Assembly (NCBI RefSeq): GCF_009932335.1
Contig: NZ_BLJF01000003.1
Span: 62,001 to 126,000 of the forward strand
Length of the DNA: 64,000 nucleotides
Direction: 5' to 3'
DNA from: Pseudomonas asiatica
GTDB taxonomy: Bacteria > Pseudomonadota > Gammaproteobacteria > Pseudomonadales > Pseudomonadaceae
The notes beneath the pieces are model-generated. The model worked only from the letters and a program-made list of their open reading frames with translations. It searched no databases and was not told the DNA's origin. The translations under genes were made by a program, and so were the position numbers. This document shows positions 1,946-58,643 of the stretch, piece after piece; position 1 is the stretch's first letter, and each line of letters begins with the position of its first letter.

Positions 1946-3073
1946 TCATTGCGCTTCTGCCTGCTTCAGCGCCAGCACGTCCTTCGGCGTGACCATGTCA
2001 CCCTTGTTGTTGCCCCAGGCGTTGCGCTCGTAGGTGACCACGGCGGCGATGTCGACTTCCGAGAGCTGCTTGCCGAACGCGGCCATGGCAGTGCCAGGCT
2101 TGCCGTGGAATACGATGCCCAGATGGGCTTCCTTCGGCCCGGTGGCGATCTTCGAGCCCTTGAGCGCAGGGAACATCGGCGGCAGGCCCTGGCCTTCGGC
2201 CTGGTGACAGGCCACGCAGGTGGTGTGGTAGACCTTGTCACCACGTTCCACCAGCTCCTCCAGGGTCCATTCCTTGCTGGTCAGTTCCTTGAGCTTGGCA
2301 GCTTCAGCCTTGCGCTCGCCCAGCCAGGTGTCGTAGTCGGCCTTGGACTTGACCTCGACCACCACCGGCATGAAACCGTGGTCCTTGCCGCACAGCTCGG
2401 TGCATTGGCCGCGGTAGATGCCGGGCTTCTCGATACGGGTCCAGGCTTCGTTGACGAAACCGGGGATGGCATCACGCTTGACCGCGAAGGCCGGCACCCA
2501 CCAGGAGTGGATGACATCGGCAGCGGTTACCAGGAAGCGCACCTTGGCGCCAACCGGCAGCACCAGCGGCTGGTCGACTTCGAGCAGGTAGTGCTCGTCC
2601 TTGGGTGCCTTGTTGTGGATCTGCTCGGTGGGGGTGGCCAGGTTGCTGAAGAACTCCACGTCCTGGCCAAGGTATTTGTAGTGCCACTTCCACTGGTAGC
2701 CGGTAACCTGGATATCGATGTCCGACTCGCTGGCATCGTAGATGTCGATCAGGGTCTTGGTGGCCGGGATGGCCATGGCTACCAGGATCAGGAAGGGGAC
2801 CACGGTCCAGAGGATTTCCACCCAGGTGTGCTCGTGGAAATGCGCAGCCTGCTGGCCGGTGGAACGGCGGTGGATGACCATGGACCAGAACATCGCGCCA
2901 AAGACAACGATGCCGATGATCACGCAGATCCAGAAGATGGTCATGTGCAGGTCGAAGACGGCGTTGGAGACTTCCGTCGCGCCTGGGTGCATGTTCACGG
3001 TCCAGGCGGCGTTGGCCTGACCAAAAACCGACCACAACAGGAGGCCCATCCAGACATGTGGATGTCGCATCAT
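1946..3073 (-). CDS. coxB: Cytochrome c oxidase subunit II with fused cytochrome c domain
   Basis: 375-residue subunit II. It has a cleavable-looking N-terminus ending at about QANAAW, two membrane segments (about 40-65 and 85-105) and a periplasmic cupredoxin domain holding the CuA site (H189, C224, E226, C228, H232, M235). A C-terminal cytochrome c domain carries the haem motif CVACH (C286, C289, H290). The fusion makes this a caa3-like subunit II that can accept electrons from a soluble cytochrome c through its own haem. Two adjacent ATGs (3073 and 3070) follow AAGGGGAA; I use the first. First gene of the operon. Confidence 0.96.
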   Translation of the reverse strand: MMRHPHVWMGLLLWSVFGQANAAWTVNMHPGATEVSNAVFDLHMTIFWICVIIGIVVFGAMFWSMVIHRRSTGQQAAHFHEHTWVEILWTVVPFLILVAMAIPATKTLIDIYDASESDIDIQVTGYQWKWHYKYLGQDVEFFSNLATPTEQIHNKAPKDEHYLLEVDQPLVLPVGAKVRFLVTAADVIHSWWVPAFAVKRDAIPGFVNEAWTRIEKPGIYRGQCTELCGKDHGFMPVVVEVKSKADYDTWLGERKAEAAKLKELTSKEWTLEELVERGDKVYHTTCVACHQAEGQGLPPMFPALKGSKIATGPKEAHLGIVFHGKPGTAMAAFGKQLSEVDIAAVVTYERNAWGNNKGDMVTPKDVLALKQAEAQ

Positions 3074-3442
3074 TGCGGGTTCCCCTTCTCGTTCTTGTAG
3101 TCCCGGAGGCGTGGCCTGCGGCAAGAGGGAACGGTGGTCAAGACTACCTGGCTTCGACGACCGAGCCCCTGCTAAAAGCAGTCGGGCCTCATCAACGAAT
3201 CACGTTCACCGGGAGTATAGACAGCGACCAACGGCACGCAACGAAGCCCGTGAAATGAACTTCATGAAATGGCTGAATGGCCTGAAAACCGCGCGCTTGA
3301 CACGACATGGCACAATAGTGGCTTTTCGATATGCCTGAGCATGCACACGTTTGCGCGACTTATAACAAATGCGTCTTAGGTATTCTGTATACCGAGCTAA
3401 TTTAGTGTCTTCCGTTTGAAACGTAATGTCCCTGGAGTTGTC
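3074..3442. other. Divergent intergenic region coxB / hypothetical gene
   Basis: 369 bases between coxB (minus) and the hypothetical gene at 3443 (plus). It holds the putative cox promoter at 3214-3241. A TTGACA at 3297-3302 on the plus strand has no convincing -10 at 16-18 bases. The stretch from about 3340 to 3440 is AT-rich and probably contains the promoter of the rightward gene. I see no extra reading frame or hairpin of note. Confidence 0.5.
3214..3241 (-). promoter_or_regulatory. Probable sigma-70 promoter of the cox operon
   Basis: Read on the minus strand: TTGCGT (3241-3236), a 16-base spacer, then TATACT (3219-3214), about 140 bases upstream of coxB. The -10 hexamer is good and the -35 is moderate. 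Inferred from consensus only. Confidence 0.4.
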
Positions 3443-4084
3443 ATGAACATCGCTGCTGTACGCGAGCAGGTAAGCCAAGCCCATCAACACGAAGGCCAGA
3501 CCGGCCAACTGAAAAAGCGTCTCGAGCTGCAACTGCCCCACCTGCACCCCTCGATCCAACTGCCTGAGCAGGACGCCCAGGGTACTTTGGCGCGCTTCGT
3601 CAGCGCCTACATCGACCAGGTTCCGGAACTGCTGGAGGCCGCCCATGAGGTCGCCCGCGAGGCCGGGATCGAATCGCAGATCAAACCTGTACTGAAAATA
3701 GCCGAGGCCTACTTCCTGCAGCCGCCCAGCGTGATGCAAGGGCATGTGGGCCTGGACTGCCTGCTGGATGAGGCCTACCTGGCACACCGCCTGGTGGAAG
3801 AGGTGAACGACCTGTACATCCGTCACTTCCAGCAACCGTTGATCCCGGTCGACACCACCGTCGCCAACCTGATTGCCCATCAGTTGATTGGCGAGACGTT
3901 TGCCAATCAGCTGGATGAAGTAGTGCACCACTCGGTGGATGAAATGTTGAATGATGAAAGCTTCGCGGTGGAATCGGTAGAGGCCTACCGCGAGAAATTG
4001 AGCAGCCCGGAAACAGGCGCGGCATGGAAGCGCTGGCCGTGCCTGTCGCGGCAGCTGGGGGTGGAGCTGGGCCAGCCGGCCTGA
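3443..4084 (+). CDS. Conserved hypothetical protein (unrecognised)
   Basis: 213 residues beginning MNIAAVREQV, with the ATG preceded by GGAG. I do not recognise the family. The protein looks soluble and mainly alpha-helical: long amphipathic stretches, no signal peptide, no membrane segment, no metal-binding cluster. Features such as QVPELLEAAHEVAR and YLAHRLVEEVNDLYIRHF suggest a helical bundle. It sits alone between the cox operon and the SulP gene and is followed by a REP pair at 4097-4190. Normal codon use for the region suggests a resident rather than an acquired gene. Confidence 0.75.
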   Translation: MNIAAVREQVSQAHQHEGQTGQLKKRLELQLPHLHPSIQLPEQDAQGTLARFVSAYIDQVPELLEAAHEVAREAGIESQIKPVLKIAEAYFLQPPSVMQGHVGLDCLLDEAYLAHRLVEEVNDLYIRHFQQPLIPVDTTVANLIAHQLIGETFANQLDEVVHHSVDEMLNDESFAVESVEAYREKLSSPETGAAWKRWPCLSRQLGVELGQPA

Positions 4085-4096
4085 AGTTCCTGTCCC

Positions 4097-4190
4097 GGCC
4101 TCTTCGCGGGCACGCCCGCTCCCACAGGGAAAGCACATGCCTTGATGACTGTGGATTACCTGTGGGAGCGGGCGTGCCCGCGAAAGGGCC
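4097..4190. repeat. REP inverted pair (GTGGGAGCGGGC family)
   Basis: Two near-perfect arms, 4097-4128 and 4159-4190, of the P. putida REP sequence with core CCTGTGGGAGCGGGCGTGCC face each other between convergent genes. Likely a BIME that also acts as a bidirectional transcript end. Confidence 0.85.
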
Positions 4191-4215
4191 GGCTCATGCA
4201 GCAAAGATTCCGGCT

Positions 4216-5748
4216 CTAGGCCCCAACCCCGGCCGTAGTCCGCATCCGCCCCTCGATCCGCCGCTTCAAGCGCCGCTGCTCGATCAGCAACCGCGACCCA
4301 TTTGCTGAATTACTGCGGCCCCAATCTTCAAGCAGCTCAAGGCACGAGTGGTCGATATAGCTGAGGTTACCCAACGGCACATGCAGGGTGGTCCCCGCCG
4401 GTACGCTATCCAGCACCTGGGTCAGCGCCGGCACCTTGAGGAAGGTAGCCGCGCCACTCAACCGCAGCTCCATGTGTCCAGCCTTTTCCAGGCTGACCAG
4501 GTTGATCTTCAATCGCGCCGCCTTCAGTGCCAGCTTCAGCAAGGTCAGGGCAAAGCCCAGCAATACACCGGTCAGCAGGTCGGTAAAGATGATCGCCAGC
4601 GCCGTCGCCGCGTAGGTGAACATCGGCATGCGGCCATAGCGGCCCAGCCCACGAAACGCCTTGAAATCCACCAGCTTGACCCCGGTAAACACCAGCACAC
4701 CCGCCAGGCTAGCCACCGGGATCTGCTGCAGCACGCTGCTCAGCGCCACCACGAACGCCAGCAGCCACAGGCCATGGAAGATCGCCGAAGCCCGGGTCTG
4801 CGCACCTGCCTGCACGTTGGCCGAGCTACGCACGATCACCCCGGTCATCGGCAACGCACCGAGCACCCCGCACAGCATGTTGCCGATGCCCTGGGCCGAC
4901 AGCTCACGATCAAAGTCCGAACGCTGGCCGCTGTGCATGCGGTCGACCGCTGCAGCCGACAACAAGGTTTCGGCACTGGCGATGAAGGCCAAGGCAAAAG
5001 CGGCGACCAACAAGGTAGGGTCGGCCAGTTGCATCAGGTCACCAGGGCGGATCCAGTCGATAGCCTCGGACAGGTCGGCCGGCACCTGTACGCGGTTCAC
5101 CGGCAAAGCCAGCCAGATGCTGATGGCCGTCATGGCCGACACACCCAGCAGGGCACCCGGGACGAAGCGCAGCCGCTGCGGTCGCAGCCGCTCCCAGCTC
5201 CACATGATGGCGATGGTGCCCAGGCCAAGCGCACCGGCCATCCAACCAGAGCCGACGCTTTCCAGCGGCAGGGCGGCGGCCACGGTCGCCGGGAACTCCA
5301 GCAGGTTCTGCATGCCGGATGGCTGCGGCGCGGTGTCGAACATCACATGCACCTGCGAAAGCACGATCAGCACGCCAATCCCCGCCAACATGCCGTACAC
5401 CACCGCCGGTGCGGTAACCCGGAACCAGCAGCCCAGGCGCAGGCGCCCGGCCAGTAACTGCAGCAAGCCGGCCAGCAGCAGGATCGGCCCGAGCATGGCC
5501 ATGCCGTGCTGGCGTACCAGCTCGAATACCAATACCGCCAGACCGGCGGCCGGGCCACTGACCTGCAGCGGCGAACCGGCGAGGAAACCAACGACAATAC
5601 CGCCGATAATGCCGGTAATCAGGCCTTTGGCCGGCGGCATGCCAGAGGCGATCGCAATGCCCATGCACAACGGCAGTGCCACCAGGAAGACCACCACCGA
5701 CGCCAGCAACTCACGCGGCAGGGCCGCTTTCAACTGTGTAATGTTCAC
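4216..5748 (-). CDS. SulP-family anion transporter with STAS domain (probable bicarbonate uptake)
   Basis: 510 residues, starting at GTG (5748) after AGGAGAAACACG. About ten to twelve hydrophobic segments span residues 10-410, including the SulP signature region LPLCMGIAIASGMPPAKGLITGIIGG. A C-terminal STAS domain occupies about 420-500. SulP proteins move sulfate, bicarbonate or other anions. A beta-carbonic anhydrase gene lies directly upstream on the same strand, 192 bases away. SulP-carbonic anhydrase pairs are a recurrent arrangement taken to mean bicarbonate transport, so I infer HCO3- rather than sulfate. The substrate is not proved by the sequence. Confidence 0.85.
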   Translation of the reverse strand: MNITQLKAALPRELLASVVVFLVALPLCMGIAIASGMPPAKGLITGIIGGIVVGFLAGSPLQVSGPAAGLAVLVFELVRQHGMAMLGPILLLAGLLQLLAGRLRLGCWFRVTAPAVVYGMLAGIGVLIVLSQVHVMFDTAPQPSGMQNLLEFPATVAAALPLESVGSGWMAGALGLGTIAIMWSWERLRPQRLRFVPGALLGVSAMTAISIWLALPVNRVQVPADLSEAIDWIRPGDLMQLADPTLLVAAFALAFIASAETLLSAAAVDRMHSGQRSDFDRELSAQGIGNMLCGVLGALPMTGVIVRSSANVQAGAQTRASAIFHGLWLLAFVVALSSVLQQIPVASLAGVLVFTGVKLVDFKAFRGLGRYGRMPMFTYAATALAIIFTDLLTGVLLGFALTLLKLALKAARLKINLVSLEKAGHMELRLSGAATFLKVPALTQVLDSVPAGTTLHVPLGNLSYIDHSCLELLEDWGRSNSANGSRLLIEQRRLKRRIEGRMRTTAGVGA

Positions 5749-5940
5749 CGTGTTTCTCCTTTCTTTGTCACACAGCCATTCCCCTGGCCGTGGGCACGTT
5801 TGCCCCTGACGAGCGCGCAGGCGCGGGCCGCCAGCGGGCGTGCCGGCAAGGCAGTCAGGGAATTCAAGGCAGCCGAAGGCCGTGCCACACCCCTACGGGG
5901 TGCAGCCGGCTATCAAGGTTCCAGCGGGTGGATGGGTCGC

Positions 5941-6660
5941 TTAGTAGCGGCCTCTCGGAGTAGCGCAGGGGACCGGCTCGCCAGCAGCCAAGGGCAGGAA
6001 GGTATCGCTGGCGGCGTCGTAGGCTTCGATCTTGCTGGTCTCGATGTCGTAGACCCAGCCATGGATGTACAGCTCACCGGCTGCCAGGCGCGAAGCCACC
6101 GAAGGGTGGGTGCGCAGGTGATGCAGCTGGGCGATGACGTTTTCCTTGGTCAGCACCTGCATGGTTTCGTGTTCGCTGCCGCACGAGCAGTTGTTCTCGA
6201 CCACGGTGCGGGCCACTTCGGCGTGGCGCAACCAGGCGGACACGGTCGGCATCTTGGTCAGCGATTGCGGGTTGAGTACGGCACGCATGGCGCCGCAGTC
6301 GGAGTGCCCGCAGACGATGATGTGATGCACTTTCAACGCCAGTACGGCGTATTCGATGGCGCTGGAAACGCCGCCGTTCATCTGGCCATACGGCGGTACC
6401 ACGTTACCGACGTTACGGGTCACGAACAGGTCGCCAGGTGAACTCTGGGTGATCAGCTCGGGAACGATGCGCGAGTCGGCGCAGGTGATGAACATGGCTC
6501 GCGGGGTTTGCGCGGTGGCGAGCTTCTTGAACAGCTCTTGCTGCTCGGGGAAAACGTCATGGTGAAAACGCAGGAAGCCGTCGACGATGTGCTTCAGGGC
6601 GGCATCGGCGCTCTCCGCGGGGACCTGCGGTACGACCTTGGATGGGTCCTTGACGGGCAT
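5941..6660 (-). CDS. Beta-class carbonic anhydrase
   Basis: 239 residues. Interconverts CO2 and bicarbonate in the cytoplasm. The beta-class zinc site is complete: C60-A-D62-S-R, then H119 and C122 in CGHSDCGA. GDLFVTRNVGNVVPP is the conserved stretch between them. The ATG at 6660 follows AAGAGGATGAATC. It precedes the SulP gene on the same strand, which suggests a CO2/bicarbonate supply unit. The short tail after about residue 215 (LAAGEPVPCATPRGRY) is typical of Pseudomonas homologues. Confidence 0.95.
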   Translation of the reverse strand: MPVKDPSKVVPQVPAESADAALKHIVDGFLRFHHDVFPEQQELFKKLATAQTPRAMFITCADSRIVPELITQSSPGDLFVTRNVGNVVPPYGQMNGGVSSAIEYAVLALKVHHIIVCGHSDCGAMRAVLNPQSLTKMPTVSAWLRHAEVARTVVENNCSCGSEHETMQVLTKENVIAQLHHLRTHPSVASRLAAGELYIHGWVYDIETSKIEAYDAASDTFLPLAAGEPVPCATPRGRY

Positions 6661-6795
6661 GATTCATCCTCTTGACGGTGTGTAGGTAAATCCATTTTAC
6701 CGGTGAAAGATTCTGGCTATGCAGGGATTTAGATGACACGCACGGGCCATAGATCACAGTCGGTGAAGACTGATTTCCTACGCTAGCGGGGAAAA

Positions 6796-6840
6796 CTTAA
6801 CTGAAACTTAATTCGAAGGCTCTAGAACGGGTGTTCCAGA
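6796..6840. promoter_or_regulatory. Possible response-regulator tandem site plus palindrome
   Basis: CTTAAC (6796) and CTTAAT (6807) are direct repeats with an 11-base period, the spacing used by OmpR/PmrA-type regulators. The palindrome TCT-N-GAAC-GGGT-GTTC-N-AGA follows at 6821-6840. Both lie about 135-180 bases upstream of the carbonic anhydrase start. Function is inferred from form alone. Confidence 0.3.
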
Positions 6841-6973
6841 TAGGAAAGGCGGGTATTGGATAATAGCAAAAAAACATCAACTGCCAAGAGCCATTACTGC
6901 AATTATCAACTTTAATTAGTTGCATTGAGGGCTGGCAATGCGCCACATGCGGGCACCCGGAACCTGCGCAGAA

Positions 6974-7060
6974 CCTGTGGGAGTGGGCGTGCCCGCGAAG
7001 GAGGCAACTCGGTACATGGCACCGGCTGTGCCGGTGTTCGCGGGCGCGCCCGCTCCCACA
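6974..7060. repeat. REP inverted pair
   Basis: Opposed copies of the GTGGGAGCGGGC-type REP, 6974-7000 and 7038-7060, around a GGCACCGGCTGTGCCGGTGTT hairpin. It sits at the 3' side of the radical SAM gene. Confidence 0.8.
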
Positions 7061-7082
7061 AAGACCGTACTCTGCTCAAGCA

Positions 7083-8141
7083 TCAGAACAACGCCATCTG
7101 CCCACCCGGCGGGCAAAACGCCGAACAATCCAGCGCCTGCGCTTCTCGCCCTTCGAACTCCAGCCGATTCATGGCCTTGGCAAAACGCTGCGCCAGCAAT
7201 TCGGCAAACACGCCTTCACCGCGCATGCGCGCACCAAAGCGGCTGTCATACAGTTCGCCGCCGCGGCTCTGGCGGATCAGGCTCAATACATGTGCCGCCC
7301 GCTGCGGGTAATGGTCCTGCAGCCATTGCTCGAACAACGGTGCCACTTCCAGCGGCAGGCGCAACATCATGTAGGCTGCGCTCTGTGCACCTGCCTCCCT
7401 CGCCGCCTCCAGCAGCCGTTCCAGTTCACTGTCGTTGATCATCGGAATCATCGGCGAACACAACACGCCCACCGGCACTCCCGCCTCGCGCAACACGCGG
7501 ATCGCCCGCAAGCGCGCCTTGGGTGACGCCGCACGCGGTTCCAGCACCCGTTTCAAGTCATCGTCCAGCGTGGTCAGGCTGATCATCACCCGCACCAGGC
7601 GCTGGCGAGCCATCTCGGCCAGCAGGTCGAGGTCGCGCAGCACCAGCGCCCCCTTGGTGACGATGGTCACCGGGTGGCGAAAACGCAGTAGCACTTCGAG
7701 CAGGCGACGGGTCAGCAGTTGTTCACGCTCGATCGGCTGGTACGGGTCGGTATTGGAACCCAGGTTGATCGGCGCGCACACGTAACCCGGTTTGTTCAAT
7801 TGTTGCGCAAGCACCTCGGCGGCGTTGGTCTTGGCAATCAGTTTTGTCTCGAAATCCAGGCCGGGGGAAAGGTCCCAGTAAGCGTGGGAAGGGCGGGCAT
7901 AGCAGTAGATACAACCGTGCTCGCAGCCACGGTATGGGTTGATGGAACGGTCGAAGGGCAGGTCGGGCGAGGTATTGCGACTGATCACCGATTTGGCCGT
8001 CTCTACCCGTACCTCGGTGCCCTGGGTTTGCGGCACCTCCTGATACCAGCCGTCATCCTCCGCCATCGAATGGCTGGGGGCAAAGCGGTTGTGCGGATTG
8101 TGCGCCGTGCCACGGCCCTTTTGCGGTGCTGGAGGAATCAT
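7083..8141 (-). CDS. PA0069-family radical SAM protein, SOS-controlled
   Basis: 352 residues. The radical SAM cluster motif is C73-EHG-C77-IY-C80, followed by SplB-like elements (NLGSNTDPYQPIE, PVTIVTKGALVLRD, SLTTLDDDLKRVLEP). The family is related to spore photoproduct lyase, but its reaction is unknown. A perfect LexA box (8155-8174) lies just upstream of the ATG. As I recall, the P. aeruginosa homologue PA0069 is a member of the LexA regulon, so a role in the response to DNA damage is likely. The start is preceded by AGAGGTAGGCC. Transcribed separately from the upstream peptidase. Confidence 0.9.
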   Translation of the reverse strand: MIPPAPQKGRGTAHNPHNRFAPSHSMAEDDGWYQEVPQTQGTEVRVETAKSVISRNTSPDLPFDRSINPYRGCEHGCIYCYARPSHAYWDLSPGLDFETKLIAKTNAAEVLAQQLNKPGYVCAPINLGSNTDPYQPIEREQLLTRRLLEVLLRFRHPVTIVTKGALVLRDLDLLAEMARQRLVRVMISLTTLDDDLKRVLEPRAASPKARLRAIRVLREAGVPVGVLCSPMIPMINDSELERLLEAAREAGAQSAAYMMLRLPLEVAPLFEQWLQDHYPQRAAHVLSLIRQSRGGELYDSRFGARMRGEGVFAELLAQRFAKAMNRLEFEGREAQALDCSAFCPPGGQMALF

Positions 8142-8154
8142 GGCCTACCTCTGA

Positions 8155-8174
8155 TACTGTATTCATGTACAGTA
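8155..8174. promoter_or_regulatory. LexA (SOS) box
   Basis: TACTGT-N8-ACAGTA, a perfect match to the CTGT-N8-ACAG consensus; the palindrome extends to 8153-8176. Its centre is about 24 bases upstream of the radical SAM start codon, placed to block the promoter or early transcription. Confidence 0.9.
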
Positions 8175-8218
8175 TCGCGCATGCCTGATTCTTTCCAGCA
8201 CCTCCGGTCAGCCCACTC

Positions 8219-10213
8219 TCACTTCAGGCCATGCCAACGCAGGAAGGGCAGTTGGCTTGACTGCCGGCCGAGAAACGCCTCAATACCGTCACGTAAAGGT
8301 CGCGATGCCCCAGGGGCAAGCAATGTCTCCTGCAGCGCCCGGCCTGTGGCCCGGTCCAGCAGGCCTTGGGCCTCGAAGCGGGTGAACAGGTCGAATGCGT
8401 GCACGTCCGACCACAGATAGGCGTAATAACCGGCATCGTAGCCATTTACCAGATGGTCGAAGGCATGCGCCGGGTGCTCGAAATCGGCCAAGGGCCAGTA
8501 GCCACAACGCTCACGAGCATCGCCCAGGCGCTGCTCGAGGGACCGGCCATCGTTCGGCGTGCCATGCAGGTCCAGATCGAACAGCGCCATGCTCAGGTCG
8601 CGCGCGGTTTCTTCCACACCTTGCTGCCGCAAGCGGCGCAGGCATTCATCGACCCGGGCCCGGGAAAGCTTGCTGCCATCCTGAAGTGGCGAAGAGATCG
8701 CCACCAGGTAATCCGCGTCCCAGACCCAGCGCTCAAACAGCTTGCCGAACAGTTCCACGCCATCGGTACCGAGTTCGGTGACGTTGGACATCACGTGGTT
8801 GGTCGTGCGCACCAGCAAATGGTGCAAGGCATGGCCAAACTCATGGAACAGCTTGCGCAGTGACAGATGGTCCAGCAACGGCTGACTACCCGGCAGCGCT
8901 GCAGGCACGTCGCTGTAGACCACCACCGAGGCCGCCTGGAAGATGCCCTCGGCATCGACCCGACGATTGCGAATGTAGGTGGTGAACACCGAGTCAGGTT
9001 GCTTGCCAGCATGCTGTACGGCGTCCAAGTACAGGAAACCGATCAAGGCGTTGTCCTGCCACACCTCAAACGGTTGCACGCTTTCATCCCAGGTTGCCAG
9101 CGGCTTGGCCAGCAGCGTTACGCCAAACAGTTTTTCCGCCAACTGCTGCAATGCGCTGACCACGGCATTCAGAGGGAAGTGTTCGCGCAAGGCTTCGGTG
9201 GAAAGCACCTCGCGCGACGAGGCCTGCAGATAGGCAATGTCCCAGGGCTGGACATTCCCCAGACCTCTGGCTGCGGCCTGATGCTGCATATCTGCACGCC
9301 ACTGCAGCACGGCCGGCCGCACATGGTCGGCAAGGTCATGAAGAAAGCCGCGCACCTGGGCAACCGAACCCGCGCTCTTCGAATGCAGGCTCTGCTCCAG
9401 ATGGCTGGCAAAACCGAGCAAGTGGGCCTTTTCTTCCAGCAGCCTCGCCAGTTGCTCCAGGTGCGAGCGATTATCCTGCTGTTGGCCAAGGCCGACGCCT
9501 CGGGTGTTGTAAGCCCGGTATACGTGCTCACGCAGCTGCCGGTTGTCGGCATGCTTGAGCACGGCGTCGGTAGTCACGCTTTCACATGCAATCAACCAAC
9601 CCGGCTCACCCGCCTCCTGTGCCCTGCTAGCCAGCTCGTCACGGATGCGTTGAGGTACACCGCTCAGTTCGGACTCATCCGTAATGCTCAGCCCTGGCCG
9701 GTTGATGTTGCTGCGAAACGCCTCGCGCGCAGCGCCAATCCGTTTCAGCAGTTCGGCCAGGCGTACCTTGCCTGCGGGGTCGAGCGATGCACCACTGGAG
9801 GTGAACTTGTGCAGATGCCAGCGCAGCGTGGCGCGTTTCTGGGCATCCAGCTGCTTGCCGATGTCGCTGTTGGCCAAGCGCTCATACAGGGCCTGCAGTG
9901 CTGAATTGGCGAATTTCTGTTCGAACCGCTCCGTGGCCTTGGCGAAGAAGTCGAAGATGGCAACGGCCCAGGCTTGATCCCGACCAACCAATGGCGAGGC
10001 GGCATACAACACCGTCAGCAGTTGACTATCCAGCCCGTCCACCGCCAGCACCATGTCATCCCAGGTTGGCAGTGCCTGCTGTTCGCGAATGATGCGCTCG
10101 ATGCCTTGCTCGTGCACCAACAGCACGTGGTCGAAGGCAAACTGCATGTTTTGAAGCGTGATCGAAGGATAATCGACGGGGATACGGCTATTTTGCAGAA
10201 GGGGGTTGTCCAT
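8219..10213 (-). CDS. M3-family oligopeptidase, divergent paralogue of PrlC
   Basis: 664 residues starting MDNPLLQNSRIPVDYPSI. The zinc motif HEFGH lies in LRKLFHEFGHALHHLLV and the third ligand is probably Glu in DGVELFGKLFERW. The protein is colinear with PrlC (10616-12667): similar length, N-terminal helical domain and C-terminal YDAGYYAYLWSDVHAFDLF, but clearly diverged (it lacks the GGAWMDGAR loop of PrlC). Probably a cytoplasmic peptidase for short peptides. It lies on the same strand as yheV and prlC, so the cluster looks like an old tandem duplication. Confidence 0.9.
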   Translation of the reverse strand: MDNPLLQNSRIPVDYPSITLQNMQFAFDHVLLVHEQGIERIIREQQALPTWDDMVLAVDGLDSQLLTVLYAASPLVGRDQAWAVAIFDFFAKATERFEQKFANSALQALYERLANSDIGKQLDAQKRATLRWHLHKFTSSGASLDPAGKVRLAELLKRIGAAREAFRSNINRPGLSITDESELSGVPQRIRDELASRAQEAGEPGWLIACESVTTDAVLKHADNRQLREHVYRAYNTRGVGLGQQQDNRSHLEQLARLLEEKAHLLGFASHLEQSLHSKSAGSVAQVRGFLHDLADHVRPAVLQWRADMQHQAAARGLGNVQPWDIAYLQASSREVLSTEALREHFPLNAVVSALQQLAEKLFGVTLLAKPLATWDESVQPFEVWQDNALIGFLYLDAVQHAGKQPDSVFTTYIRNRRVDAEGIFQAASVVVYSDVPAALPGSQPLLDHLSLRKLFHEFGHALHHLLVRTTNHVMSNVTELGTDGVELFGKLFERWVWDADYLVAISSPLQDGSKLSRARVDECLRRLRQQGVEETARDLSMALFDLDLHGTPNDGRSLEQRLGDARERCGYWPLADFEHPAHAFDHLVNGYDAGYYAYLWSDVHAFDLFTRFEAQGLLDRATGRALQETLLAPGASRPLRDGIEAFLGRQSSQLPFLRWHGLK

Positions 10214-54587: not shown

Positions 54588-54995
54588 ATGAAGAAAACCC
54601 TGACCGTGATCTGCGCCGCGCTCATGCTCAGCGCCCCCTTGGCCAGTTTCGCGCAGCCAGGCCCACCTGACCGGCATGATGGCGGCCCATCGCACCAGGG
54701 CAACCCACCGCATGGTCAGCCACAGTACCAAGGCCGACATGACAATGGCCGCGGTCCCGCCTACCGCGACCCGAACTTCCGCCCACAACAGGGCATGCCG
54801 GTTCCGCATCAGCAGTGGCAGCGTGGCCATGTGGTTGACCCGCATTATCGTGGCGACCGTTACTGGGTGACCGACTGGAAAGCACGCCACCTGTATGCGC
54901 CACCGCGTGATCACCGTTGGTTGTATGTGAACGGGGACTATGTGCTGGTGGCTATTGCCAGTGGTGTGATCGTCAACGTCCTCAGCGGTTACTGA
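54588..54995 (+). CDS. RcnB-family periplasmic protein
   Basis: 135 residues. Signal peptide to about ASFAQ, then a Pro/His/Gly/Gln-rich stretch (PGPPDRHDGGPSHQGNPPHG) and an RcnB-like C-terminal domain (YWVTDWKARHLYAPPRDHRWLYVNGDYVLVAIASGVIVNVL). RcnB in E. coli takes part in nickel/cobalt homeostasis; here the His-rich part suggests metal binding. ATG follows GAGGA. Confidence 0.85.
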   Translation: MKKTLTVICAALMLSAPLASFAQPGPPDRHDGGPSHQGNPPHGQPQYQGRHDNGRGPAYRDPNFRPQQGMPVPHQQWQRGHVVDPHYRGDRYWVTDWKARHLYAPPRDHRWLYVNGDYVLVAIASGVIVNVLSGY

Positions 54996-55000
54996 ATACC

Positions 55001-55016
55001 TGTTCCACGTGGAACG
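55001..55016. other. parS site 1
   Basis: TGTTCCACGTGGAACG, 15 of 16 bases of the pseudomonad ParB-binding site TGTTCCACGTGGAACA. Intergenic, immediately after the RcnB-like gene and before higBA. Confidence 0.85.
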
Positions 55017-55056
55017 TTGAATCGTTGTCGGAGCGACTCTACCAACCCTTGCGTGC

Positions 55057-55073
55057 AGTCCCACCATGGGACT
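55057..55073. promoter_or_regulatory. Candidate HigA operator
   Basis: AGTCCCA-CCA-TGGGACT, perfect 7-base arms (10 with one mismatch), 13 bases upstream of the higB start; likely the autoregulatory site of the toxin-antitoxin operon. Confidence 0.65.
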
Positions 55074-55085
55074 ACACTACCAAAC

Positions 55086-55388
55086 ATGAAGATCATCGCC
55101 ATCAGCCAGTTGAAAGCCTTTTGGGAAACCTACCCAAACGCTGAACAACCACTACGCGCATGGGTCGACGAAGCCAGGAAAGCGACATGGACGAGTCCTG
55201 ATACCATCAAGAGCCAGTACCGTAACGCAAGCATCCTGAAAGGCAGACGCGTCGTCTTCAATATCAAAGGGAACGATTACAGGCTGGTGGTAGCCGTTGC
55301 CTACCGCTTTGGAGCGGTCTACATCAAGTTTGTCGGAACGCACGAGGAGTACGACAAAATCGACGCAAACACTGTGGAGATGGAGTGA
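55086..55388 (+). CDS. higB: HigB-family toxin (mRNA interferase)
   Basis: 100 residues, RelE/HigB fold: MKIIAISQLKAFWETYP, LKGRRVVFNIKGNDYRLVVAVAYRFGAVYIKFVGTHEEYDKID. Toxin-first order before higA, with six bases between stop and antitoxin start. HigB toxins cut mRNA in the ribosome. AT-richer than neighbouring housekeeping genes. Confidence 0.9.
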   Translation: MKIIAISQLKAFWETYPNAEQPLRAWVDEARKATWTSPDTIKSQYRNASILKGRRVVFNIKGNDYRLVVAVAYRFGAVYIKFVGTHEEYDKIDANTVEME

Positions 55389-55394
55389 CTATCA

Positions 55395-55766
55395 ATGAAC
55401 ATCCGCCCAATCCGCACCGACTACGACTACCGGGCAGCACTCAAGGAGATCTCTCCGCTGTTCGAGAATGAGCCAGAACCTGGCACACCCGAGGGAGACG
55501 CTTTTGAAGTCATGATCACCTTGATCGAGGCTTACGAGAGCAAGCATTTTCCGGTGGAGCTGCCAGACCCGATCGAGGCCATCAAGTTTCGTATGGAACA
55601 GTCCGGCCTAACCGCTGCCGATCTGGCTCCTGCCATAGGTAAGACAAACCGGGTCTATGAAGTGCTAAATCGTAAGCGTTCATTGACGCTGCCAATGATT
55701 TGGAAATTGCACGAAATGTTTGGCATTCCGGCTGAAAGCCTGATCAAACCAATGAAGACAGCTTGA
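55395..55766 (+). CDS. higA: HigA-family antitoxin
   Basis: 123 residues. The C-terminal Xre-type helix-turn-helix is IKFRMEQSGLTAADLAPAIGKTNRVYEVLNRKRSLTLPMIWKLHEMFGIPAESL. The N-terminal part probably binds HigB. Likely represses its own promoter at the palindrome 55057-55073. Confidence 0.9.
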   Translation: MNIRPIRTDYDYRAALKEISPLFENEPEPGTPEGDAFEVMITLIEAYESKHFPVELPDPIEAIKFRMEQSGLTAADLAPAIGKTNRVYEVLNRKRSLTLPMIWKLHEMFGIPAESLIKPMKTA

Positions 55767-55833
55767 AGCCAGCTGTCCACACTATTTGTGGAAGAGCGAA
55801 TAAGCCTTGGAGGAATAGGGAAAGGTCACTAGC

Positions 55834-56040
55834 CTAAGAACCCGCTTCCCAAAGCCAACTATCATGGTCCCACTCCACTCGGCGCAGTTCCTCAACAACG
55901 TCATCTGAAAAATCGCCGAAGGTCTCCTCCCGGCACACCGAGAGACCGCGCCCATACAAACGATGGATGGCTTCCACTTGAGGGGCTACGCCGCTATCAA
56001 CAATCACCAAGTACGGCAATTGGCGTAGATTAGGCGGCAC
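55834..56040 (-). CDS. Small protein coupled to the primase-helicase (unrecognised)
   Basis: 68 residues from GTG 56040, which overlaps the helicase stop by one base (TAGTG); the same frame extends to an ATG at 56118, giving 94 residues with a 79-base overlap. PPNLRQLPYLVIVDSGVAPQVEAIHRLYGRGL then an acidic tail (EETFGDFSDDVVEELRRVEWDHD). No known family recognised. Probably translated with the helicase and could be a partner or inhibitor (inference). Confidence 0.55.
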   Translation of the reverse strand: MPPNLRQLPYLVIVDSGVAPQVEAIHRLYGRGLSVCREETFGDFSDDVVEELRRVEWDHDSWLWEAGS

Positions 56041-58412
56041 TAGAGAAGTTTCATAGTGGCCAGACTGTCCGTCAGCCGATACCCCATCATCTTGTAGCCT
56101 ATTTTTCGCTTCTCCCACATTCGCATTAATGCGACGTTGCCCTCATCAACAAAATCGATGACTTGTACATCAGTCTTGGCGGTGTGCGTTCGATGCAATC
56201 GACCAGTGTATTGCTGGAGGATTCCCCGCCAGGAAATGGGCATAGCCAGCACGAGTGTATCCAATGCAGGATGATCAAAGCCCTCACCAATCAGTTTTCC
56301 CGTAGCAAGGAGGACTCGAGGCGTGTCTTCAGACAAGGATTCAAGCTCTCCAAGACGGGATAATCGCTGCTTCTTGGGCATTCTTCCATGAAGGGTAAAG
56401 AGGTTTTCAATATACGCCTTCAGTGCCTGCTCTAAGGCATCCACATGCTCCGTGCGTTGCGTCAACACTAGTACTTTTCTACCTTGCTCATAGGCTGAGC
56501 GGATCTCTGAAACGATCTGCGCAGTACGCCCCGGGTCGTCGGCAAGTCTTTTGAAGACCTCTTGTATTCCCGCACCATCAGATACAGGAACCGGACCACT
56601 AAGCATCCGAGGAGTGACTGACAAATCGTGGGGGGCATTTTCTGGTCGTGCCGCAGTATGCCGAATGGGACCGCACTGCATGAAAATAATTGGCTGCTGT
56701 CCGTCTCGGCGGATGGGTGTAGCAGTCAGACCAAGCACATAGCGCGCGGGGGCGCTTCGTAGTAATGCTTCAAAGGAGACCGCAGAGAGGTGATGACACT
56801 CATCCACAATAATCTGACCGTAATTTTTGATCAGGTCACTGATTTCACCTTTCCGCGAAAGTGACTGCATCACAGCGATATCAATCAGCCCGGTTGTCTT
56901 AGGCTTTCCACCGCCAATCGTACCGACTACCTCCTTTCCTACGCCCAAGAAGGTCTGTAATCGGGCTTGCCACTGCCGAAGCAGTTCCGTGCGATGCACA
57001 AGTACCAGAGTGTTAACTCTACGCCTGGCAATTAGAGCAGCGGCGGTTACTGTTTTACCAAACGCCGTTGGGGCGCAAAGTACTCCTGTGTCATGCGGAA
57101 TCAGTGCAAGGATTGCCGCGTCCTGATCTGGACGTAATGCACCCAAGAATTTGACCTCGAGGGCAGCGCCAGCAAAGCGTTCATCCTGAAGTTGCGGAGT
57201 GATCTTGTGGTCTTTTAAGAGATCCTCTACCGCATCCCAACAGCCGCGAGGAATCCCAATATGCAGAGGGAAATTTTGAGCGCAGCCAATGACTCTGGGT
57301 TTATTCCAAACCGATAGCCGCATTGCCTGCGCCTTGTAAAAATCAGGGTTTTGAAAAGCCGCAAGCCGAATGAGCTGGTTAGCCAATGGCTGGGGTAGCT
57401 GTGACTTCTCAAAATAAATCAGGTTAGCCAGCGTAACGTTGAGGGTATCTGGTAAAGGGCATGTCAGCGACCGGGAAGTTGGCTCACGATGTTTCCAGGG
57501 TTCGGCTTCACTCTGCTCGTCAAAAAAAGCAACACCCAAAGGATCTCGATTGCCCATGGCTTGATTGATAACCGGCTGGATGCTTTCTGGACTCATCCGC
57601 CGAACAGAAGCCAGGAACCCCCATTGATCGGGATACGGTTCCAGTGAGTCGTCGACAAAAACACTGTGATTGTTTGCCCTGGCTCGCTTCTGCAGCGGCA
57701 GAGCAATCAGGTTGCCGAACCCACCCTTGGGCATAAAGTCCTGATTCGGGAAGAGCCTGTCGTACGAACTGAGTGACAGCTGTCGGGTGCGCTCGCAAGC
57801 ATGACTTATGATCGCGGCTCCCAAACGGCGGGCGTCACTGGCAGGCACTTTGTCTTGGAAGAAAATCCACGCGTGTGCCCCATTGCCAGAACGCGAGATT
57901 TCCAGAATTACAGGAACATCGAGAGAACGGCCAGCATGCACAAACGCCAGCGCATCCTCTCGCCAGTCAGCTTCATCGAAATCGACAGCTAGGAAGTGAC
58001 ACGTATCATCCGAAAGCAGCGGATAGACCCCAACCACAATAGTCCCTGAGAGGTGACGATAAATGACCTCGTCGTTCACTGGTAGGAGTTGACGCTTGCC
58101 ACAATCACCGCATTTGATAAGTGGCTTTTCACAGATTCCGGGCCGCCATTCATTGGCACAGGCAGGTGCATACCCAGACTTGCCGCCTCTACTTTCCCAG
58201 CGCAACGGGTAGGTGTCGATACGTCCTTTGAACAAGCTACGGAAAAGAGCGAGTTTGCTATCAGTATCAAGGTTGGTGAGCGGCTGATTACCCAGTACCG
58301 GCATACATACAGACTCAGCTGGAAGCTGCCACTCAATGCCATGCGCCTCAAGCAAGGCTACAAGTCGCTCATTCTCTGCCCGCAATTTTGCAACCAGCGT
58401 GGAATCGCTCAC
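56040..58412 (-). CDS. TOTE-type primase-SF2 helicase fusion (conflict system)
   Basis: 790 residues; GTG start. A coiled N-terminus (LVAKLRAENERLVALLEAHGIEW), a zinc knuckle (C85, C94, C101 and C104), then an archaeo-eukaryotic primase core with D144-F-D146 (LAVDFDEADW) and SGNGAHAW (H180). A superfamily 2 helicase follows: Walker A PTAFGKT (448-454), DECHH (537-541), LTATP (562-566), and the C-terminal motifs ATGKLIGEGFDHPALDTL and QQYTGRLHR. This layout matches the TOTE conflict systems, thought to act against mobile elements. AT-rich compared with gyrB. Confidence 0.85.
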   Translation of the reverse strand: MSDSTLVAKLRAENERLVALLEAHGIEWQLPAESVCMPVLGNQPLTNLDTDSKLALFRSLFKGRIDTYPLRWESRGGKSGYAPACANEWRPGICEKPLIKCGDCGKRQLLPVNDEVIYRHLSGTIVVGVYPLLSDDTCHFLAVDFDEADWREDALAFVHAGRSLDVPVILEISRSGNGAHAWIFFQDKVPASDARRLGAAIISHACERTRQLSLSSYDRLFPNQDFMPKGGFGNLIALPLQKRARANNHSVFVDDSLEPYPDQWGFLASVRRMSPESIQPVINQAMGNRDPLGVAFFDEQSEAEPWKHREPTSRSLTCPLPDTLNVTLANLIYFEKSQLPQPLANQLIRLAAFQNPDFYKAQAMRLSVWNKPRVIGCAQNFPLHIGIPRGCWDAVEDLLKDHKITPQLQDERFAGAALEVKFLGALRPDQDAAILALIPHDTGVLCAPTAFGKTVTAAALIARRRVNTLVLVHRTELLRQWQARLQTFLGVGKEVVGTIGGGKPKTTGLIDIAVMQSLSRKGEISDLIKNYGQIIVDECHHLSAVSFEALLRSAPARYVLGLTATPIRRDGQQPIIFMQCGPIRHTAARPENAPHDLSVTPRMLSGPVPVSDGAGIQEVFKRLADDPGRTAQIVSEIRSAYEQGRKVLVLTQRTEHVDALEQALKAYIENLFTLHGRMPKKQRLSRLGELESLSEDTPRVLLATGKLIGEGFDHPALDTLVLAMPISWRGILQQYTGRLHRTHTAKTDVQVIDFVDEGNVALMRMWEKRKIGYKMMGYRLTDSLATMKLL

Positions 58413-58532
58413 TGCTTAGAAGCCTCTGTCGCTGAACAGGTTGCTAACCTAGTTACGGGTAGGCTATCAGCCTACGACGGCGGCCATCAAATGCCTTCGG
58501 GGCCTTCAGGTGAGGCTGAAGAAAATAGAGGC

Positions 58533-58556
58533 AAAAAAAGCCCGCGCGTGCGAGCT
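58533..58556 (-). terminator. Intrinsic terminator of gyrB
   Basis: Minus strand GCTCGC-ACGC-GCGGGC (six pairs, one G-T) followed by TTTTTTT. It lies about 90 bases past the gyrB stop. Confidence 0.8.
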
Positions 58557-58563
58557 TGATGTT

Positions 58564-58598
58564 GACCGGTGGGGACCAGAATCTGGGCCCGGCCGGTC
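58564..58598. other. Long imperfect hairpin between gyrB and its terminator
   Basis: GACCGG ... CCGGTC outer arms with inner GGG/CCC and CCAG/CTGG pairs. May stabilise or pause the gyrB transcript. Confidence 0.5.
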
Positions 58599-58643
58599 AT
58601 CTATCTGTGAAAGCGTGCAGCTTTTCTGTAAACCTACACCGAA

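Follow-up and report, generated by a model that had tools for sequence, protein, structure and literature searches.

A CAPP-like primase-helicase and a convergent HigBA pair in an apparent insertion beside gyrB of Pseudomonas asiatica

What is a fused primase-polymerase and helicase doing beside gyrB in Pseudomonas asiatica, and does it belong together with the toxin-antitoxin genes that face it? The question arises from a 64,000-nucleotide stretch of DNA (contig NZ_BLJF01000003.1, positions 62,001 to 126,000), analyzed whole and hereafter called the window. Its gyrB and recF genes, together with named Pseudomonas records among the closest helicase loci, place it on a Pseudomonas chromosome. 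Next to gyrB and recF (58.6-62.2 kb of the window), the minus strand encodes at 56040-58412 a CAPP-like AEP primase-polymerase fused to an SF2 helicase, 790 amino acids (aa) long and called the helicase below. Convergent with it, at 55086-55766 on the plus strand, is a HigBA pair that is absent from an earlier note made on this DNA from its letters alone. We lean towards reading the locus as a mobile, toxin-antitoxin-escorted primase-helicase cargo that serves conflict between elements.

The identity of the 790 aa protein is supported by Pfam, by PADLOC, and by matches to solved chains. Its layout comprises an AEP domain at about residues 53-280, with a zinc knuckle within it, and an XPB/UvsW/RadD-like SF2 helicase at about residues 420-770. 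The earlier note had seen a zinc knuckle, a DxD/H primase site, and an SF2 helicase in one protein, and the Pfam domains and invariant residues bear this out. The profile search that it had proposed for the TOTE AEP and SF2 domains retrieved the Pfam family AEP-TOTE (PF22548) with 333.7 bits over residues 53-279 (cut-off 27), as well as ResIII (PF04851), DEAD (PF00270), and Helicase_C (PF00271) in the C-terminal part, and the PADLOC PrimPol model PDLC01465 spans residues 9-353. The zinc knuckle cysteines C85, C94, C101, and C104 and the residues D144, D146, H180, and D218 are unchanged throughout alignments of 13 and 42 sequences, and the DECH box (537-540) and the GRLHR motif (737-741) are invariant in the same alignments apart from C539 and L739, which are nearly so.

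The closest solved chains for residues 116-292 in a profile search are CAPP Prim-Pol domains (7nqd and 7nqf, E ~1e-20). A single-sequence comparison also matches 7nqd (E 1e-10) and places D144/D146, H180, and D218 opposite like residues of that chain. We take H180 and D218 to be catalytic, an assignment that is partly our assumption. The DxD is described as catalytic in the CAPP paper (PMC8211822). For the C-terminal motor, the best solved relatives are XPBII/RAD25, UvsW, and RadD (chains 6p4f, 2fwr, 2oca, and 6jde). An AlphaFold2 model built from 42 sequences has a mean predicted local distance difference test score of 82.2 and a predicted template modeling score of 0.68. From the sequence matches, the fold is predicted to be an AEP domain plus an SF2 motor. 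The NCBIfam model for CAPP A1, NF040561, scores 72.9 on the protein, below its cut-off of 200, and this weighs against CAPP membership.

The family is maintained by purifying selection in close relatives, since the ratio of nonsynonymous to synonymous substitution rates (dN/dS) is 0.07-0.14 in five close Pseudomonas pairs; a sixth pair gives 0.04 and is nearly saturated, and pairs with the window's own helicase are saturated at synonymous sites. Helicase matches at E 1e-30 occur in 34 of 398 genomes of the genus, some of the copies being broken. Broken or remnant copies in Pseudomonas genomes are seen, for instance, at L064, L066, L067, and L068 (L and G numbers are our handles for compared loci and genomes), with the L066 remnant in the gyrB-side interval. 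Among 72,556 plasmid records 338 match, and in 91 of these the match covers 80% or more of the protein. Phage records match more often (1,252 of 50,697) but always at less than 60% identity and never over 80% of the length, which argues against a phage origin of the 790 aa protein, and among the matches listed they carry the helicase half only. Viral contigs (80 loci) include at least two loci with a relative at 64-65% identity and at least seven at 42-48%. In a 100-row tree, made by a quick method without bootstrap and with some long branches outside the Pseudomonas clade, the window protein is sister to L053 plus L257 inside a 32-row Pseudomonas clade.

How did the helicase come to lie beside gyrB? 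The 3638-bp segment at 54996-58633, which holds the HigBA pair, a small open reading frame (ORF) behind the helicase stop, the helicase, and a gyrB-side leader, behaves as one insertion because 3 of 12 relatives have collinear flanks and an empty site. In this comparison, which set the window against stretches from 12 related genomes (L265-L276), L265, L266, and L268 have only 46-56 bp between the gyrB-side and the rcnB-side homology, and the rcnB-like gene, which ends at 54995 in the window, adjoins gyrB at their empty sites. No helicase match was found in any of the 12 genomes, and no HigBA match in their compared stretches. The collinear part stops further out in six relatives (L269-L274). 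In the remaining three (L267, L275, and L276) the gyrB-side homology extends to about 58529-58532, beyond the gyrB terminator, and the gyrB-side border is thus uncertain by about 100 bp. The stretch common to these three contains a terminator-like hairpin behind gyrB (58538-58557, minus strand), although the hairpin scan, with 4 such sites in the region vs 3.9 in shuffles, is alone no evidence. The earlier note's suggestion that the locus was acquired is thus upheld by a 3.6-kb segment that is lacking at a collinear site in three relatives and by the presence of the helicase in a minority of the genus.

Base composition, on which the earlier note had also relied, agrees in part: the four 1-kb blocks at 55-59 kb have 52-55% GC vs mostly 60-67% across the window, but the adjoining gyrB blocks have only about 57%, so that the contrast on the gyrB side is slight. 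We considered whether the helicase transposes alone, since copies that are nearly identical but differently surrounded have about -171 to +114 around the gene in common; the borders differ between pairs, however, and we rejected this. The palindrome GTTCCACGTGGAAC, which we take to be parS-like, lies at 55002-55015 near the distal junction of the insertion and is one of three perfect copies in the window (55002, 61107, and 61737). A copy is also found 156 bp (L076) and 141 bp (L253) past the helicase stop.

The toxin gene of the pair (55086-55388, plus strand) encodes a HigB-family protein of 100 aa when read from the ATG at 55086, the mechanically called ORF starting at 55017; it matches PF09907 (E 1.6e-31) and the PADLOC model PD-Lambda-2_A. 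The gene behind it (55395-55766, plus strand) encodes a HigA-type helix-turn-helix (HTH) antitoxin of 123 aa, with 23.3 bits to PF01381 (cut-off 23) and a match to PD-Lambda-2_B. A HigB toxin gene followed by an HTH antitoxin gene is the expected HigBA arrangement, and from family and gene order the pair is predicted to be one. The PD-Lambda-2_B match covers only positions 1-121 of 402, i.e., not a full-length B protein, and no third PD-Lambda-2 component was recognized among the four proteins scanned, for which reasons plain HigBA is the safer name. Members of the same HigBA family are found no more than about 3.3 kb from the helicase at L062, L085, and L111, and the helicase's closest kin, L053 and L257, have no HigBA in the flanks examined.

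To what extent are relatives of the helicase escorted in the same manner? Gene calls in the compared loci were mechanical, and the shortest ORFs probably include many that are no real genes. We left out L084, L105, L108, L135, L138, and L142 (no full open frame or a contig end) and L064 (longest piece too short), and removed seven near-duplicate helicases (97 to 90) and then eight distant viral-contig loci (L154-L161), leaving 82 non-redundant loci. A same-strand ORF abuts the helicase on its upstream side in 69 of these, is lacking in 6, and could not be assessed in 7 with too little sequence; downstream, the respective numbers are 55, 20, and 7. The 69 upstream ORFs, counted by Pfam from the best 25 of 45 families, include ParE (12), Fic (4), AbiEii (3), RhuM (2), HTH (2), and HipA (1), with JetD, McrC, and YafQ matched once each among the matches listed. 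About 24 of the 69 are toxin- or antitoxin-like, a figure that supposes no ORF to fall under two families and excludes the one YafQ match. Among the 55 downstream ORFs are RelE (2), Phd (1), TacA1 (1), and one HTH protein read as HipB-like. A control of 50 ORFs taken 4-6 kb upstream, not matched for gene size or position, gave one Fic-like ORF and one DUF4411 ORF among the matches listed (control part A7, best 25 of 30 families). DUF4411 we presume to be toxin-like; another 2 control ORFs match AAA_21, a family that Pfam calls a 'putative AbiEii toxin' but that we did not include among the toxins. All these toxin counts are approximate and include related loci, RelE occurring mainly in two clades. 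Type I restriction families are also found a few kb from relatives' helicases.

The abutting genes have also been exchanged repeatedly: over 95 labeled tree rows, there are at least 28 switches from one class of abutting gene to another. Labels could be given to 95 of the 100 rows, partly by eye (AbiEii at L083, Fic at L103 and L118, HTH at L104, and McrC at L153) because the Pfam tables give no indication of the matching member. One recurrent neighbor is an unnamed 181 aa family, exemplified at L088:1606-2151, which abuts or overlaps the helicase start and has homologues at L085, L087, L092, L096, L098, L107, L122, L125, L136, L277, L278, and L283-L285. It abuts the helicase start in 10 of the 69 loci, in 2 of 6 genomes found by a search with the 181 aa protein alone (274 genomes of the class; 1.5-kb flanks), and in 3 of 12 plasmid loci. 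The member at L088 has no NCBIfam or PADLOC match, and the commonest Pfam matches of the upstream set do not include the family. As a candidate for a genuine coupled partner of the helicase, it is more promising than the small ORF of the window.

Because such escort by toxin-antitoxin or other defense genes is frequent, a role in conflict is suggested, and the reading of the locus as escorted cargo can be put in steps. A CAPP-like primase-polymerase with its SF2 motor would have been carried into the interval between gyrB and plsC along with the convergent HigBA pair. The motor may act at stalled forks, at breaks, or on DNA entering the cell, where it would bind and open or remodel the DNA; on the strand thus exposed, the AEP domain would lay and extend primers. 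The enzyme would thereby act on, or sense, a rival's replication intermediates, and the toxin pair may add retention or growth arrest. Both the biochemical steps and the conflict role are things that we infer from sequence and gene context. The 'anti-mobile-element' function proposed in the earlier note is likewise conjectural, the surroundings of relatives fitting defense and mobile-element cargo about equally.

Several observations weigh against this reading. The HigBA pair is convergent with the helicase and outside its operon, so that arrival together need not mean joint function. Helicases without a recognized neighbor are the majority (51 of the 95 labeled rows are 'other'), and of the 75 loci whose sequence reaches far enough to tell, 6 lack an abutting ORF. 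Defense islands and mobile elements are rich in toxins anyway, and the control set is unmatched. The toxin counts also take in related loci, two clades holding most of the RelE matches. The analysis brought no activity or phenotype to light.

A bolder form of the same idea, which we regard as quite unlikely but worth stating, is that a modular conflict system is built around the CAPP-helicase as its constant part. The CAPP-helicase would recognize foreign or stalled replication intermediates, and the start-coupled gene (RelE, Fic, AbiEii, RhuM, HigA, or the 181 aa family) would be an effector or immunity module that can be exchanged for another. In the window the two would have been rearranged into a cassette of convergent HigBA and helicase at a gyrB-side hotspot. 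Helicase-fused Prim-Pols outside CRISPR are widespread, and their role is seemingly yet without an assay. With the repeated, swapped coupling to toxin or defense genes, and with HigBA and helicase in a compact cassette whose empty site is clean, this would be a tractable two-module locus in which one could ask whether such enzymes serve defense, repair, or the maintenance of mobile DNA.

The rival readings, which are not mutually exclusive in the weights that we give them, can be taken one by one. The first treats the enzyme as one of upkeep or repair, serving its carrier element or host through replication restart or gap filling, the toxin pairs being addiction modules that keep the carrier, with no defense role; we consider this possible rather than probable. 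In its favor are the plasmid relatives, 91 of them at 80% coverage or more, a motor closest to the repair helicases XPB, UvsW, and RadD, and the settings of plasmid copies. We chose 12 plasmid loci from 30 among the matches listed, and in 6 of them transposition or integration genes adjoin the helicase; integrases do so in three, and HipA precedes the helicase in one. At L287 the helicase lies between a recombinase gene and a Tn3-family transposase, at L288 the same arrangement recurs with a recombinase gene, the helicase, and then a DUF4158 gene, and at L294 the end of TniQ overlaps the helicase start, so these three helicases are apparently inside transposon operons. The reported location of non-CRISPR CAPPs, typically in mobile elements, points the same way (PMC8211822). 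Against it, upkeep would not need JetD, McrC, AbiEii, RhuM, and Fic as neighbors or type I restriction families nearby.

Could the HigBA pair and the helicase instead be independent passengers of one segment, brought together by chance at a busy insertion spot between gyrB and plsC? Genes of the gyrB or plsC-gmhB-glyS sets lie in the flank of 14 of 31 Pseudomonas helicase loci, the window not included (plsC is at 44.4-45.1 kb in the window; the names plsC, gmhB, and glyS are our presumed assignments). By coordinates in 119 genomes, a helicase or, in G014, a remnant lies between gyrB and glyQ in G000, G012, G014, G018, G037, G057, G092, and G112, and the helicase lies outside in G046, G082, and G058. 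The G058 interval wraps round the record start and was hence scored as outside, and G075, G081, and G104 have gyrB and glyQ on different contigs. The Paraburkholderia locus L110 also has its helicase directly after gyrB. The gyrB gene lies near oriC. Where the helicase is absent and a single contig carries both gyrB and glyQ (95 genomes, one wrap-round row, G096, being left out), the interval between the two genes varies from 3.7 to 77 kb, with a median of 8.8 kb, a spread that fits such a busy spot.

Other elements do occupy the same place. In the relatives G071 and G076, the gyrB terminator is directly followed by a Tn7-like set (TnsA, B, C, and TniQ); it is seen at L267:2189-8551 and in the matching part of L276, its cargo looks copper-handling-like by eye, and its Tns/Tni names were given by eye and by likeness to L057. 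No Tns/Tni match was found in the window (tblastn with the Tns/Tni-like proteins of L267, L057, and L150), which argues against the segment being Tn7-like cargo and leaves a lost carrier as a possibility. Over 26 labeled tree rows the place label changes at least 3 times, rows without a marker gene in the flank being labeled 'elsewhere' and this placement being proven only for G046, G058, and G082; with so few changes, much of the occupancy of the interval may be old residence and less of it repeated targeting. The lack of HigBA in the flanks of the closest kin also suits chance neighbors. Against it, the same HigBA family accompanies the helicase closely at four loci that belong to different branches, and toxin families are enriched immediately upstream of the helicase gene. 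We think chance association conceivable without expecting it to be the answer.

There remains the small ORF (55834-56040, minus strand), a near-orphan of 68 aa that abuts the helicase stop. The earlier note had the helicase stop overlapping the start of a small gene. The frame does exist: its GTG start begins on the final G of the helicase's TAG stop (a 1-nucleotide overlap), and a 94 aa version from an earlier GTG (55834-56118) overlaps the helicase by 79 nucleotides. What does not stand is a conserved coupled gene. The small ORF has no family match in Pfam, PADLOC, or NCBIfam, a single relative among 5.8 billion clustered proteins (P0001, a 68 aa predicted protein of 97% identity), and at E 1e-4 a match in only 1 of 398 genus genomes, namely its own. 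Against 194 relatives, only weak matches besides itself were found; at other weak matches that were inspected (L033, L035, L036, L041, L042, and L050), the matching frame lies across a longer ordinary ORF that is read differently. By BLASTN, the homology that the window shares with 27 other Pseudomonas helicase loci (11 aligned) stops no more than 3 bases past the helicase stop, so the proposed survey of its conservation beside helicases found no counterpart at 27 related loci. Lack of conservation was one half of what the earlier note had named as refuting its proposal, and on that half the small ORF fails. Its suggested role as a conserved partner or regulator is accordingly not supported, and we place it outside the family's putative mechanism.

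Nevertheless, the small ORF could be a real gene, either young or a fragment, that is translated by coupling to the helicase; it might encode an inhibitor or be what remains of the start of a Wadjet jetD gene. Its codon score is 0.105 in frame (-0.26 to +0.02 in the remaining five frames), its GC by codon position is 0.70/0.41/0.57, and its 97%-identical relative is of the same length. It also shares ten consecutive identical residues with the JetD starts of L060, where the gene adjoins the helicase, and L070. The JetD likeness spans only 19-28 residues and is non-significant at the scale of the searches (E 1 in plasmids and E 0.004 in one of 194 genomes), and we treat it as a lead only. In shuffles, the given frame was open for at least 67 codons behind the stop in 8% of cases and any of three frames in 24%. 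With codons that look coding yet an openness that arises this often by chance, the ORF may be a young gene, a fragment, or an accident, and we hold the first two unlikely. As a separate observation, L060 carries at 2846-9940 Wadjet JetC- and JetD-like genes (JetD by Pfam) directly ahead of its helicase, in the gyrB-glyQ interval of G037. The combination that the earlier note favored, a TOTE-type conflict system with the 68-94 aa gene as its partner or regulator, is largely refuted and in our view highly improbable, since the PF22548 domain, the 1-nucleotide overlap, and the coding-like codons are outweighed by a genome in which no TBP was found and by a small ORF confined to one genome in 398 with no counterpart behind 27 related helicases.

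With escorted cargo as our preferred reading, how does the locus compare with known systems? We claim no priority, and the literature found, as far as its texts were available, describes neither a toxin-antitoxin pairing nor a gyrB-side hotspot for such enzymes. The protein resembles TOTE systems in its AEP domain, which belongs to Pfam's TOTE-named family PF22548, and to this extent the earlier TOTE-type label holds. TOTE stands for TPR, OB, TBP, and Effector (PMC12458937). TBP (PF00352) was not found in the window's own genome (G000), 4 of 14 control genomes being positive, all of them archaea; by that definition this is not a TOTE system, and among solved structures CAPP comes nearest. Neither TPR nor OB is matched by the four ORFs scanned at 55017-58412, no search having been aimed at TPR or OB genes. 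The toxin-antitoxin pair resembles HigBA and PD-Lambda-2 in having a PF09907 HigB beside an HTH antitoxin and in matching both PADLOC models, and it differs from PD-Lambda-2 in its partial B match and unrecognized third component. The motor shares the SF2 core of XPB/RAD25, UvsW, and RadD but is unlike them in being fused to a primase-polymerase.

The closest comparison is with CAPP. Cas1 (PF01867) was not found in the window's own genome, whereas 9 of 14 control genomes were positive, so only the non-CRISPR form of CAPP comes into question, and we rejected a role in CRISPR adaptation. The CAPP_A paper differs from our account in that its main text leaves toxin neighbors unmentioned, the word 'toxin' occurring 0 times in it (PMC8211822). 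Helicase-fused CAPP is the most prevalent form outside CRISPR and is typically found in mobile elements, according to Zabrady et al. (2021, PMC8211822). The window protein is like this helicase-fused CAPP_A type in standing outside a CRISPR operon, and judged by its domains and nearest solved chains, the 790 aa enzyme appears to be of a known kind, the helicase-fused non-CRISPR CAPP group.

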